Source: a virus. From it: DNA of 46,041 bases. The stretch spans positions 1 to 46,041 of the IMG/VR virus record IMGVR_UViG_3300046522_000183, one strand, 5' to 3'. Shown here piece after piece: positions 1 to 46,041 of this stretch. Below the pieces are notes generated by a model. It was not told the DNA's origin. It saw only the letters and a program-made list of their open reading frames with translations, and searched no databases. Numbering within the stretch: position 1 is the first letter of the stretch; the number at the start of each line of letters is the position of its first letter. A program made the position numbers and the translations under genes.

Positions 1-46
1 CGAGGACACGATGGCACCTCTTGAGCTGAAGCTGCTCAAGAAGGAA
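1..46. repeat. Terminal overlap, left copy
   Basis: These 46 bases match 45996-46041 at 43 positions. The differences fall at 16 (A/C), 19 (T/G) and 46 (A/G), each in a third codon position of the RNA polymerase frame, and all are silent. The window is therefore a circular or circularly permuted genome cut inside a gene, with the two ends perhaps from slightly different strains. Confidence 0.9.
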
Positions 47-42156: not shown

Positions 42157-42174
42157 TATCGAGGAGTGAAGTTC

Positions 42175-42567
42175 ATGGAGACTTTGATGATTGACCCCGT
42201 ACGTCCCTCGATCAGTGAAGAGGAGATCGAAAGCTTGGAGGCGCTATTCCACGCGCTCAAGCCGTTCTTTGAGATGGAGCACGCTGTGTTGCCTGCGGCC
42301 TACATCAGGGCCTTCATACTGGTGGGCAAGAAGGAAGGCCTTGGCGTCTCTGAATACGCTGATCAGGTCGACATCAGCCCGACCGTGATGACGCGCAACT
42401 TGCTCGACATCGGGGACCGCAACAGGCAGCGCGAGAAGGGCCTGGAGCTGATCACCCAGGAGCGCGACCCGTTCGACCTCAGGAAACATCGGGCCCGATT
42501 GACGCCCAAGGGCCGCAAGCTGGCGCACGACATCAACGTGGCCCTGCGGCGCGTGCGGAAGAAGTAG
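42175..42567 (+). CDS. MarR-like winged-helix regulator
   Basis: This 130-residue protein has the MarR layout: helices, then SEYADQVDISPTVMTRNLLD (recognition helix), then a wing with RDPFDLRKHRARLTPKG, then a closing helix. MarR proteins bind palindromic sites as dimers. Its place just before the integrase suggests control of lysogeny or integration; this phage shows no CI-like repressor. ATG 42175 is eight bases after GGAG; GTG 42166 overlaps that site and is unlikely. Confidence 0.75.
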   Translation: METLMIDPVRPSISEEEIESLEALFHALKPFFEMEHAVLPAAYIRAFILVGKKEGLGVSEYADQVDISPTVMTRNLLDIGDRNRQREKGLELITQERDPFDLRKHRARLTPKGRKLAHDINVALRRVRKK

Positions 42568-42573
42568 GGCGCC

Positions 42574-42690
42574 ATGGACTGGCTCGACTACTACCAAGAC
42601 GCCACGCTGCTCCTGGCGGCCCTGTGGGCCCTCTGTGGGCTGGCTGCTGGCATCCACAAGAGACTGGAGGACCGCAATGGCATACGCTGA
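42574..42690 (+). CDS. Tiny membrane peptide (38 aa)
   Basis: ATG 42574; it ends inside the integrase gene. The peptide has one hydrophobic helix (ATLLLAALWALCGLAAGI) followed by a basic end. Small membrane peptides recur in this block (41112, 42037). Supported mainly by composition and position. Confidence 0.45.
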   Translation: MDWLDYYQDATLLLAALWALCGLAAGIHKRLEDRNGIR

Positions 42691-43837
42691 GAAACGAGAC
42701 GGCAAGCTGACGGGCGTCTGGATCGGCGAGGTCTACCGCAAGCCCAAGACCTTCCGTAGGCGCTTCAAGACCAAGAAGGACGCCGAGGGATACGAGCTGT
42801 ACGTCAAGCTGACCGGGGAGGAGCCGCCGACCATTGATAACACCCAGAGCACTGGGGCCCCGACGTTCACCGAGGCCGTCGAGATGGCCAAGAAGATGAA
42901 GGGCCCCAGGGGCGTGTGGGACCTCACGAACGACGAGAGCCTGTGCCAGCGCCTCGCCCTTGTGCAGACCGTGCTGGGGCCCTACGAGGTCACGGCGATG
43001 GGCGAGGACACCACCGACGTCCTCAAGGCGCGCCTGGACAAGCTGCGCAAGGGCAAGCATCCGATCAAGGACAGCACCAAGAACCGCTACCTGACCGTGA
43101 TGAGCGCGGTGCTGCACTGCTGCGAGATCAAGAAGTGGATCCCGATCAAGCCGACCGTGCGCCTCTACCGCGAGGACAACGCCAGGCGGGCCATCCTGAC
43201 CCACGAGGCCCAGGACGAGGTCATCCTCCGGCTGATGCGTGCGGCCGGCCACCCGGTCGAGGCCAAGTGCGTCGAGTTCCTAGTCGAGACGGGCCTGAGA
43301 CGGGGGGAGCTGTGTGGCCACGCACGGCGCAATAAGAAGCCCCTGCAGGCCAACCAGATCACCCTGGAGCCCGATGACGAGACGGGTGGCGAGAACGGAT
43401 GGGTAACGCTCGGAGGTGGCCTGGAGGGCATTGAACAGACGAAGAACAATAGCTCGCGACGTGTCTACGTAAGATCCGAGCTGGCCAAGGAAATGCGCGC
43501 CATTATTTTGTCTGGACACCTGCCAACTGGCGACCAGTTGCTAGATAACTTCAAATCGGCGAGGGACCGTGCGGGGTACCCGAGCAATCTGGTGATCCAC
43601 TCCCTACGCCATACACGCAATACGCGTCTCTCCAAGGTCGAGCCTGACATCAAAAATCGCATGCAAATACTAGGGCAAAAGACCGTCTCTACCAACCTGC
43701 GCTACACCCACGTGTTCGACAAGGATCAGCTGGCGGTAGCGAAAAAACTCGAGAAGCGTGCGGGGGACCTGTCAGAAAAATCGTCTGCCCAGGTGGTAGA
43801 CATCCGAAATTCCTCTGTTATATCAAAGGCCGGTTAG
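42677..43837 (+). CDS. Tyrosine integrase
   Basis: This 386-residue site-specific recombinase has a SAM-like core-binding domain (about 65-155) and a catalytic domain with Arg208 or 209 (TGLRRGEL), a Lys in TKNNSSRRV (about 256), His308 and Arg311 (HSLRHT) and Tyr343 (LRYTHV). Gln334 stands where most relatives have His (LGQ for LGH). The N-terminal AP2-like DNA-binding part is short. GGAGG lies six bases before ATG 42677. The last base of its TAG stop is the first base of the attP core. Confidence 0.93.
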   Translation: MAYAEKRDGKLTGVWIGEVYRKPKTFRRRFKTKKDAEGYELYVKLTGEEPPTIDNTQSTGAPTFTEAVEMAKKMKGPRGVWDLTNDESLCQRLALVQTVLGPYEVTAMGEDTTDVLKARLDKLRKGKHPIKDSTKNRYLTVMSAVLHCCEIKKWIPIKPTVRLYREDNARRAILTHEAQDEVILRLMRAAGHPVEAKCVEFLVETGLRRGELCGHARRNKKPLQANQITLEPDDETGGENGWVTLGGGLEGIEQTKNNSSRRVYVRSELAKEMRAIILSGHLPTGDQLLDNFKSARDRAGYPSNLVIHSLRHTRNTRLSKVEPDIKNRMQILGQKTVSTNLRYTHVFDKDQLAVAKKLEKRAGDLSEKSSAQVVDIRNSSVISKAG

Positions 43838-43878
43838 GAAGGGTGGCCGAGCGGTTTAAGGCACTGGTCTTGAAAACC
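43837..43878 (+). other. attP core: 5' half of a tRNA-Ser(UGA) gene
   Basis: These 42 bases read as tRNA-Ser from the first base of the acceptor stem through D loop (GAGCGGTTTAAGGC) and anticodon loop (CTTGAAA, anticodon TGA) to ACC of the 3' anticodon stem. Beyond 43878 the pairing with the 5' anticodon stem fails (GT in place of AG) and no tRNA 3' half follows. It starts on the G of the integrase stop. It is the phage attachment core, with the crossover probably in the anticodon region. Confidence 0.85.
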
Positions 43879-43888
43879 GTATATCAAC

Positions 43889-43897
43889 TAGCTGCCA
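43889..43897 (+). promoter_or_regulatory. TAGCTGCCA motif, copy 4
   Basis: Copy 4 is 11 bases to the right of the attP core. Here it could also act as an arm site for the integrase or an excision factor, but the other copies are 2-4 kb away. Confidence 0.4.
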
Positions 43898-43932
43898 CTT
43901 GAACATCTAATTTCCCTCCCTATAAGAACCAC

Positions 43933-43959
43933 AGAGGCCGCTTCGGCGGCTTCTTTTTT
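43933..43959 (+). terminator. Terminator between attP and the RNA polymerase gene
   Basis: GCCGC-TTCG-GCGGC extends outwards with AGAG/TTCT (9 pairs, one G-U), followed by TTTTTT. The tetraloop and T run make it a strong intrinsic terminator. It would stop integrase transcripts in the free phage. In the prophage it would stop transcripts from the host tRNA-Ser promoter before they reach the RNA polymerase gene. Confidence 0.92.
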
Positions 43960-43970
43960 CGCCCAGTTCC

Positions 43971-44005
43971 CTGCCACGTGTAAAACTACCTCCCAGTGAT
44001 ATGGT
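43971..44005 (+). promoter_or_regulatory. Possible promoter for the RNA polymerase gene
   Basis: CTGCCACGTGTAAAAC (43971-43986) matches the copy at 40574 at 15 of 16 bases. It is followed by an extended -10-like TG-A-TATGGT (43997-44005). No consensus -35 is present. A transcript would start near 44012 and leave a leader of about 77 bases. Confidence 0.45.
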
Positions 44006-44088: not shown

Positions 44089-46041
44089 ATGGACACCAGT
44101 GTTCTCCCTAACGATACCTTAGGCCTCCATACGGAACTTCAGCTCGCCGAAGCCAAGCTTCAGAAGCGCGAGGACCGTGCCGAAGCCAGTGCTGGCTTTG
44201 GGTCCACCATCGGTGGAATGGTTATCACCTCCAATTACCTCGCTAAGGTGACTGAGGGCGTCGAGGCTCGTCTCAAGGGACCTAAGCCCCGTTCGAATAC
44301 CCACGCCTTCCGCTTCCAGCGACTGATGCTGAAGCTTGAGCCGGCCGTGATTGCCTTGGCTGTGCTCCAGGCTGGCCTGTTCTCCTCGGGCCTGGGCGCC
44401 ATGGCCACCCACCGTGATGTGGTGCTCCGCATCGGCCGCGCCCTCAACAACGAGCTGTGGGCGGCTCAGTTGCTCAAGACGAACAAGAAGCTCCACACCA
44501 AGGTCCAGAAGACCGTGAAGGAGCGCTACGGCACCACTGACCTTCGCATGACCATGGCCAAGAAGCTCGCCGAGAAGGGCGACGCCGAGGGCAACACCTT
44601 CGTGATGCAGGAGTGGACGGCTAACGAGCTGTCCCACGCCGGCAACTGGGGCCTCACGCTCCTGCAGGAGACCATGGCCGACGTGTTCGAGCTTGCGGAG
44701 CCTGAGAGCTTCAAGGGGGAGCGTGTCTGGCGCATCTCAGCCCAGGGCCTGGACATGGCCATGGCTGCGCTGAACGAGGTAGTACTCAAGAGCCCCGTGT
44801 ATCAGCCCAGGACCGAGGCACCCAAGGCCTGGGACACCATGGTAATGCGCGTGGCCGAGGATGACCGCACGCTCGACCGGGCCCAGTTGATCCGCACGTT
44901 CCACAAGGACGTCATGAGCGGCGTGAAGCACGCCATCAGGGCGGGCTCCATGGCTCCGGCTCTCAAGGGCCTCAACGCTCTGCAGTCGGTCCCGTTCACG
45001 ATCAACACATGGATCTTGGACGTCCTCATCGACTGCTACAACAGGGGCATCAAGGTCGACGGCGTGCCGCGCCGTGAGAAGCTGGAGATCCCAGAGCGGA
45101 AGACTGACGCCGAGTTCAAGGCACTCAGCATCCCGCAGCGCCGGCTGCTCAGCAAGCAGATCCGCGGGCTCCACAAGGCCAACAACGCGAACACCGCGGA
45201 CACCGTGCAGTTCGTCGAGGACATCGAGACGGCGCAGCGGCTGGCCCCTGTAGAGCGTTGGTTCACCCCAATGAACTGGGACTGGCGCACCCGCACGTAT
45301 GCGTTGACCCGGTTCAACTTCCAGCGCGAGGACTACGTACGCTCGCTGTTCCTGTTCGCCAATGGCAAGCCCATCGGTGAGGAGGGCATCAAGTGGCTCA
45401 AGATCCACGTGGCCAACTGCGGCGCCTTCAAGATCGAGGGCGCGGACGGCAAGAAGGTCGGCATCGACAAGAAGCCATTCGAGGAGCGTGAAGCGTGGGT
45501 GGATGCGAACCTTGAGCGCATCACCGCTGTCGTCGACAACCCGCTGGCTGAGAGCCGTAGGTGGTGGACAGAGGCCGACAATCCGTTCCTCTTCCTCGCC
45601 GCATGCCGGGAGCTGTGCTCTGCCATCGTGCAGGGCCCGAGCTACATCACCCACCTGCCGACCGGCTGGGACGGGAGCTGCAACGGGCTTCAGCACCTAT
45701 GTCTGATGACCCGAGACACGCAGGGCCGCCTCGTCAACCTGACGAAGAACGACGAGCCGCTCGACGTCTACCAAGTGGTGGCCGATCTGGCGCGGGATCT
45801 CATCCTGGCGGATCTCGACAACAACGAGACGTTCGGCAAGCAGGACGCTGACAAGCCCGAGCGCAAGACCTACTCCACGTATGCGAAGCTCGCTGCGATG
45901 GCGTTGGCCTTCGGCGTCGACCGTAAGCTCGTGAAGCGCAACTGCCTCACCTTCAGCTACGCCTCGAAAGAGTTCGGCATGTCCGAGCAGCATTTCGAGG
46001 ACACGATGGCCCCGCTTGAGCTGAAGCTGCTCAAGAAGGAG
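44089..46041 (+). CDS. T7-like single-subunit RNA polymerase, N-terminal part
   Basis: These are the first 651 codons of the phage RNA polymerase; the rest is at 1-724. ATG 44089 follows AAGGAG at 44073-44078. Palm and fingers motifs are visible: TGWDGSCNGLQH with catalytic Asp528 (T7 D537), and VKRNCLTFSYASKEFG with Lys616 and Tyr624 (T7 K631 and Y639, the latter choosing ribonucleotides). The N-terminal 300 residues, which read the promoter, differ more. The frame stays open to the last base. Confidence 0.95.
   Translation, partial: MDTSVLPNDTLGLHTELQLAEAKLQKREDRAEASAGFGSTIGGMVITSNYLAKVTEGVEARLKGPKPRSNTHAFRFQRLMLKLEPAVIALAVLQAGLFSSGLGAMATHRDVVLRIGRALNNELWAAQLLKTNKKLHTKVQKTVKERYGTTDLRMTMAKKLAEKGDAEGNTFVMQEWTANELSHAGNWGLTLLQETMADVFELAEPESFKGERVWRISAQGLDMAMAALNEVVLKSPVYQPRTEAPKAWDTMVMRVAEDDRTLDRAQLIRTFHKDVMSGVKHAIRAGSMAPALKGLNALQSVPFTINTWILDVLIDCYNRGIKVDGVPRREKLEIPERKTDAEFKALSIPQRRLLSKQIRGLHKANNANTADTVQFVEDIETAQRLAPVERWFTPMNWDWRTRTYALTRFNFQREDYVRSLFLFANGKPIGEEGIKWLKIHVANCGAFKIEGADGKKVGIDKKPFEEREAWVDANLERITAVVDNPLAESRRWWTEADNPFLFLAACRELCSAIVQGPSYITHLPTGWDGSCNGLQHLCLMTRDTQGRLVNLTKNDEPLDVYQVVADLARDLILADLDNNETFGKQDADKPERKTYSTYAKLAAMALAFGVDRKLVKRNCLTFSYASKEFGMSEQHFEDTMAPLELKLLKKE
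45996..46041. repeat. Terminal overlap, right copy
   Basis: Right copy of the 46-base overlap with positions 1-46; see the left copy for the three silent differences. It continues the RNA polymerase frame exactly into base 47. Confidence 0.9.

Follow-up and report, generated by a model that had tools for sequence, protein, structure and literature searches.

When an integrating phage brings the 5' half of a tRNA gene, the tRNA rebuilt on integration comes to lie on the phage side of the junction, and the question arises which promoter then transcribes it. As the sequence-only reading of the locus discussed here had stated, 3' halves prevail and 5' halves are exceptional: Islander counts 3760 islands with a 3' fragment vs. 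159 with a 5' fragment, 3919 in total (PMC4383910). According to a review of archaeal systems, rebuilt bacterial tRNAs nearly always retain the original promoter, and the use of the integrase promoter, as by 5'-half tRNAs of the pTN3 type, is seldom met in bacteria (PMC8371274, citing Williams 2002).

The DNA analyzed (hereafter, the window) is an IMG/VR virus record of 46041 bp, from a soil temperate phage. Its tRNA half had been read as an attP core whose integration would tie the serine tRNA supply of the host to integrase-side transcription. The reading favored below, which we regard as probable, is that of an attP in a temperate phage encoding a T7-type RNA polymerase, with the 5' half of tRNA-Ser(UGA) as its core, crossover in the anticodon loop and the rebuilt tRNA made from a phage promoter. 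Three of its elements are observed directly, i.e., the exact tRNA half, the synteny of regulator, integrase, attP and RNA polymerase, and a related prophage in which integrase, complete tRNA-Ser(UGA) and host DNA follow each other.

The attP core and its genomic setting

The core, situated on the integrase strand between the integrase and RNA polymerase genes (Table 1), comprises the 5' strand of the acceptor stem, the D arm, the 5' strand of the anticodon stem and the entire anticodon loop (CTTGAAA, 43869-43875), with the first three bases of the 3' strand of this stem closing the 42 bases. Four GTDB genomes contain all 42 without a mismatch, and in every case they form the 5' half of a complete tRNA-Ser(UGA) gene; hence, a chance origin is ruled out. 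The four genomes are mixed MAGs and too few for naming the host of the phage. Thus, the search of bacterial genomes proposed by the sequence-only reading did find the core followed by the 3' half, and the 5' half described as lacking a 3' counterpart is borne out; ARAGORN finds no complete tRNA in all 46041 bp of the window. An Rfam tRNA match at 43837-43921 was rejected as lying under the gathering score, its 3' part being no genuine tRNA half.

The core had also been described as fused to the integrase stop codon. The overlap does exist in the window, where the first G of the core is the final base of the integrase TAG (ORF 42635-43837), but it is peculiar to the window: because the integrase stop in L002, L003 and L005 is placed 14-15 bases earlier relative to the core, a conserved fusion is ruled out. 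The anticodon loop is the probable 7-bp overlap region, i.e., the site of crossover; the evidence for this is a 17-bp repeat at both prophage ends in the 3'-type relative G759 and, for the 5' type, the rebuilt tRNA at attR. Overall, 43837-43878 is a genuine attP and falls in the 5'-half class, which is rare and has been known in outline before.

Table 1. Features of the attP region of the window and the evidence on which they were assigned
Feature	Position	Strand	Evidence
Transcriptional regulator upstream of the integrase gene	42166-42567	+	phrog_9665 3e-19
Tyrosine integrase, 386 aa, conserved start MAYAEKR	42677-43837	+	PF00589 6e-10; phrog_1 1.5e-30; alignment
Candidate tRNA promoter in the integrase 3' end: TAGACA (43797-43802), 16 bp, TATATC (43819-43824)	43797-43824	+	Matrix scores; aligned sites in relatives
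attP core, 5' half of tRNA-Ser(UGA), GGAAGGGTGGCCGAGCGGTTTAAGGCACTGGTCTTGAAAACC	43837-43878	+	Identical 42 bases inside complete tRNA-Ser(UGA) genes of four genomes
Probable arm-type integrase site, copy 1, CTGCCACTTGAACATCTA	43892-43909	+	Direct repeat of 18 nt sharing 78% identity with copy 2
Candidate promoter of host type for the RNA polymerase gene, TTGAAC-16-TATAAG	43899-43926	+	Overlaps arm site copy 1
Intrinsic terminator or attenuator hairpin, AGAGGCCGCTTCGGCGGCTTCT-TTTTT	43933-43960	+	GC hairpin with T run ahead of the RNA polymerase gene
Probable arm-type integrase site, copy 2, CTGCCACGTGTAAAACTA	43971-43988	+	18-nt direct repeat pair
T7-type RNA polymerase gene, N-terminal part	44089-46041	+	Pfam PF00940 5e-47; continues at 11-724

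The tyrosine recombinase beside attP retains its catalytic R, K, HxxR and Y in the alignment; in place of the second histidine, the window and its two nearest relatives have Q. The gene order is regulator-integrase-attP-RNA polymerase, with the integrase gene and attP directly before the polymerase gene, and a helicase-primase and DNA polymerase A are present as well. Since the near-identical ends of the record (window 1-45 vs. 45996-46040, 45 bp with two mismatches) lie inside the polymerase gene, the phage genome seems to be effectively closed, with attP internal. PHROG profiles matched portal (phrog_1216), scaffold, terminase and ejection protein, which make up a candidate T7-type virion module. 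The virion genes (portal, scaffold, terminase, ejection protein, tail fibre, collar) occupy the minus strand at 16741-38244, opposite to the T7-like replication genes, unlike in T7.

The integrases of L006 and L007, compared with window 42677-43834, are nearly identical over the first ~75 residues (the arm-binding part) and about half identical over the remainder; their tRNA core is Cys and that of the window is Ser. Judging from these alignments, the core-binding and catalytic part seems to be exchanged among integrases as a module together with the att core.

An integrated relative with a rebuilt tRNA

The search with the window integrase revealed L003, a part of G002 (IMGVR_UViG_2927030885_000003), which aligns with the window over its whole length, with the circle cut open at attP (window 44089 corresponds to G002:1, window 43879 to G002:45335). 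Behind its integrase gene, a complete tRNA-Ser(UGA) is found at G002:45293-45382, followed by host DNA; the flank past the tRNA is unrelated, has a lower G+C content and carries other integrases, along with an IS110 element that shares 99.6% identity with ISBj4 from Bradyrhizobium japonicum. By these sequence features, G002 is a prophage integrated in a Bradyrhizobium-type host. The 3' half of its tRNA is identical to that of the native gene in the related genome L163, and the 5' half departs from it at several bases, including one D-stem G-C replaced by an A-U pair. With a native 3' half and a variant, still paired 5' half, the hybrid therefore looks like a working tRNA.

The expected complete tRNA behind the integrase gene is thus seen in an integrated relative, as is a prophage with a related integrase at a tRNA-Ser gene, and this confirms the predicted attR geometry, in which the element gives the 5' half and the host gives the 3' half. 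The record of G002 starts inside the prophage at the RNA polymerase gene, attL lying outside it. In the proposed scheme, crossover would probably occur at the anticodon loop of the host tRNA-Ser(UGA), so that the original 5' half, still joined to the host promoter, would remain at the opposite prophage end (attL), where the promoter would face the terminator and the RNA polymerase gene. At attR, the rebuilt tRNA would be transcribed from a sigma-70-type promoter in the last ~40 bases of the integrase gene, so survival of the host would depend on phage-borne DNA, with the tRNA probably supplied via a constitutive promoter and not via regulated integrase transcription.

Transcription of the rebuilt tRNA

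As earlier proposed, the rebuilt tRNA does lose its host promoter; this tRNA is normally single-copy. In the family of G007, tRNA-Ser(UGA) is single in 43 of the 45 genomes with a match and tRNA-Cys in 34 of 34. With single copies in nearly all sampled genomes, the rebuilt gene has no backup and must work; being cut off from the host promoter, it has to be made from prophage DNA or by read-through from the integrase side.

The candidate promoter in the integrase 3' end terminates 12 bp ahead of the tRNA. Sites were scored as bipartite sigma-70 elements with the start falling at -10 to +1 of the tRNA, using an E. coli matrix and an alpha-weighted one set by the authors from the known consensus after the sequences had been seen. 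Among the positions of the integrase gene, the window site ranks from the 98.8th (E. coli matrix) to the 100th (alpha-weighted) percentile, with shuffle p of 0.048 and 0.006. The quantiles at the 5'-half loci are 0.77-1.00 (E. coli matrix) and 0.91-1.00 (alpha-weighted), most of these loci having the upstream site within the top 0-8% of integrase positions, as compared with 0.30-1.00 and 0.17-0.80 at four controls with a reverse 3' half. None of the four has a promoter-like site by the alpha-weighted matrix; one, L122, scores high with the E. coli matrix. The excess of the 5'-half loci over the controls (one-sided p 0.0014 and 0.015) is overstated by these values because the loci are related and the controls few. 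Composition shuffles of single loci gave p of 0.001-0.15 (alpha matrix) and 0.006-0.41 (E. coli matrix), and the signal is weak in the L072/L098 lineage. The native tRNA leaders have a mean score below that of the phage 5'-half leaders.

Individual sites are in line with such a promoter. The -10 of L003, aligned with the window site, is a perfect TATAAT overlapping the integrase stop codon; a perfect TATAAT is also found ~20 nt ahead of the 5'-half tRNA-Leu in the distant cyanophages P-SSP7 and P-SSP2/3, which lie outside this family. Four native tRNA-Cys genes feature TTGCCT or TTGATT with TATATG, TATAGA or TATATT, and their distance is close to that of the phage TTGC(A/C/T)N...TACAG. Taken together, the promoter signal is of moderate strength, and a phage-borne tRNA promoter appears more likely than read-through of the integrase gene. 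If the phage has a dedicated promoter, coupling of the tRNA supply to integrase expression is probably not needed. The claim that the serine tRNA supply is tied to integrase-side transcription is not supported as it stands, given the promoter-like sites that precede the 5' half in the window and most relatives and not the reverse 3' halves. A coupling of host fitness to this transcription is possible, if less likely than a dedicated promoter. The sequence-only reading had itself conceded that an intact promoter between the integrase gene and the rebuilt tRNA would make the dependence trivial; what is found comes near to this, the candidate sites being within the integrase 3' end at a spacing typical of tRNA promoters.

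The rebuilt tRNA might nevertheless have no promoter of its own and be released from an integrase read-through transcript by RNase P and 3' nucleases, so that fitness is tied to integrase expression. This would suit the start of the tRNA 0-40 bases past the integrase stop, the moderate promoter scores and the expression reported for archaeal pTN3-type 5'-half tRNAs from the integrase promoter (PMC8371274). Still, nearly all 5'-half lineages have well-spaced promoter-like sites at this place and the reverse 3' halves do not; read-through of an essential single-copy tRNA would, moreover, force constitutive integrase expression. Constitutive expression of an integrase endangers the stability of the prophage. 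Overall, read-through seems rather unlikely.

Alternatively, the conserved bases upstream of the core might be arm-type integrase sites or sites for accessory proteins, and no promoter. A part of the block CAGCCACTTG of the Cys group does resemble the downstream arm repeats CTGCCACTTGTAAA, and the integrase C-terminus is conserved in itself. However, the Ser group of the window lacks this block yet has a TATAAT-like sequence at an equal distance, and the sites match the native tRNA-Cys promoters in both sequence and distance, which makes a role in protein binding alone rather improbable; the arm-site and promoter roles could also overlap. The phage-borne promoter thus remains the preferred source of the rebuilt tRNA.

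The right-hand arm

Between attP and the polymerase gene, the window harbors a pair of direct repeats, a candidate promoter and a hairpin (Table 1). Relatives have a CTGCCACTTGTAAA-like sequence at the position of arm site copy 1, and TTGNNN-16-TATANN is kept at the place of the polymerase promoter in most of them, in both att types. The sequence CTCCCTATA was considered as a repeated T7-type phage promoter and rejected, as the window has one exact site; it fits better as the -10 region of a host-type promoter. The 5'-half loci that were examined have the GC hairpin as well, some of them with fewer Ts in the run. In the window (43899-43954), this terminator-like hairpin starts within ~7 bases past the promoter TTGAAC-16-TATAAG.

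Integrase binding at the arm repeat, or attenuation, could govern polymerase expression. Since the host tRNA promoter of a 5'-type lysogen would be directed toward the hairpin and the polymerase gene, the hairpin may insulate this gene. It may equally well attenuate the polymerase transcript, as it is directly behind a conserved promoter and is shared by the reverse-type L074.

Distribution of the two att types among relatives

The alignment of RNA polymerases supplied 53 loci, whose integrase-polymerase gap was read for tRNA halves. The 5' half of a Ser or Cys tRNA is present at this place in more than 20 viral contigs: tRNA-Ser(UGA) in the window, L002/L063, L064, L005/L070, L066, L069, L072 and L098; tRNA-Cys(GCA) in L006, L007/L067, L061, L062, L068, L071, L073, L075-L080, L083, L088, L091, L099, L105 and L027/L108. 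In all distinct 5' halves, the D stem is still paired, A-U, C-G and wobble variants among them, as would be expected if the tRNA is functional. The D-stem variants CCA/TGG, GGA/TTC and GTC/GGC (L005/L070, L061, L006), always paired, are absent among the sampled native genes.

Reverse 3' halves are found in L030/L074 (tRNA-Ser(UGA)) and in L085 and L097 (tRNA-Thr(UGU)). Two lysogens represent this conventional type: G759, a prophage within an 8.7-Mb contig with both att sites, where tRNA-Cys is intact at attL beside the integrase gene and the 17-bp direct repeat CGGTCTGCAAAACCGTG, centered on the anticodon loop, recurs at the far end ~44 kb away; and G762, adjoining tRNA-Ser(GCU). No recognizable tRNA half follows the integrase gene in L026/L102, L028/L094, L111, L086, L087, L092, L095 and L090, which share the integrase-polymerase arrangement. 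In L140 (Limnohabitans phage YIMV22061), a complete tRNA-Leu is situated at 2215-2303, on the opposite strand between the integrase and RNA polymerase genes, and is a third solution to the same problem.

The recognized cores are all anticodon stem-loops (CGGT-7-ACCG-like), near-palindromes that the integrase could bind in either direction. In the integrase tree, the 5' label requires at least four changes, forced by the starred branches, and the pair L072/L098 (5' Ser) is sister, at 100/99 support, to the pair L085/L097 (3' Thr). A further reading, with the chances about even, is that a single integrase family has flipped repeatedly between the 3'-reverse and 5'-forward types, enabled by the near-palindromic stem-loop; every flip to the 5' type would have gone together with a tRNA promoter built into the 3' end of the integrase gene, and the prophage would take over the transcription of an essential single-copy host tRNA.

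A general scan of viral contigs for Ser halves gave no additional family member among the loci read. The viral contigs L265, L285, L289 and L291 contain a 5' half of tRNA-Ser(UGA) with no 3' half, away from this type of integrase or polymerase, and are possible further 5'-half elements. No lysogens of the window's own type were detected in 385 alphaproteobacteria by protein search, nor in 398 genomes of the order of G007, in 399 of its family (with two relatives there, both 3'-type) or in 300 genomes from the order and family to which G008 belongs; the L003 half had no match in 367 alphaproteobacteria. The scarcity of lysogens (2 of 399 genomes in one family, none in the others), along with the T7-like cyanophages of the same gene order that integrate without stable lysogens (PMC8776855), would suit a tRNA half that is a relic or homology patch of an effectively lytic phage with abortive integration, where its expression in lysogens hardly matters, but this is very improbable in view of the integrated G002, colinear with the window and adjoining host DNA, and of the 3'-type prophage with both att sites in G759.

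Relation to known systems

A 5'-half attP next to an integrase gene is not new in outline, the T7-like cyanophages preceding it: the motifs at their attP correspond to the first half of tRNA-Leu, and integration without stable lysogeny is reported (PMC8776855). Like the window, P-SSP7, S-TIP37 and S-CBP1 have the order regulator-integrase-attP-T7-type RNA polymerase and an attP that reproduces, on the integrase strand, the front half of a host tRNA gene (PMC8776855); the regulator occupies the position of the MarR/gp0.7 gene of these phages, and the gene order is shared with P-SSP7, CRP-125 and S-CBP1. In contrast to the window with its Ser (or, in relatives, Cys) tRNA, the cyanophages use tRNA-Leu and cyanobacterial hosts with no stable lysogeny reported; their integrase is ~25-30% identical to that of the window over half its length, and the structural genes of the window are on the other strand.

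The 5' tDNA islands of Islander resemble the window in the anticodon-centered crossover and displaced 5' fragment, both of them probable for the window phage, but constitute a catalogue class (PMC4383910). The archaeal pTN3-type integrases likewise bring a 5' half, with the rebuilt tRNA on the element side; they are, however, suicidal and split on integration, whereas the integrase of the window stays whole, and the integrase promoter reported for their tRNA contrasts with the separate promoter proposed for the window phage (PMC8371274). In the tRNA-dependent lysogeny of mycobacteriophages, the host tRNA is destroyed and replaced by a whole phage tRNA gene, so survival of the lysogen relies on phage-borne DNA for an essential tRNA (PMC10865867), as it would here. 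The window differs from this Hatfull-type lysogeny in being without a tRNA gene, the tRNA in L003 being rebuilt. Freshwater SAR11 phages also carry a whole replacement tRNA-Leu (PMC6811365).

Biological significance

Within the known 5'-half class, the site belongs to a soil phage family with repeated switching of the half and with a replacement tRNA promoter seemingly within the integrase gene. Several Cys-type phage halves are identical to native halves in the sampled Bradyrhizobium-related family, which gives a handle for host prediction. The paired relatives of the 5' and 3' types, including the sisters L072/L098 vs. L085/L097, represent a natural experiment on promoter loss. As a 5'-half insertion parts an essential single-copy tRNA from its promoter, it offers a direct test of a prophage owning a housekeeping function of its host. 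Should the integrase 3' end indeed contain this promoter, the prophage could be lost safely by precise excision alone, which would favor its retention.
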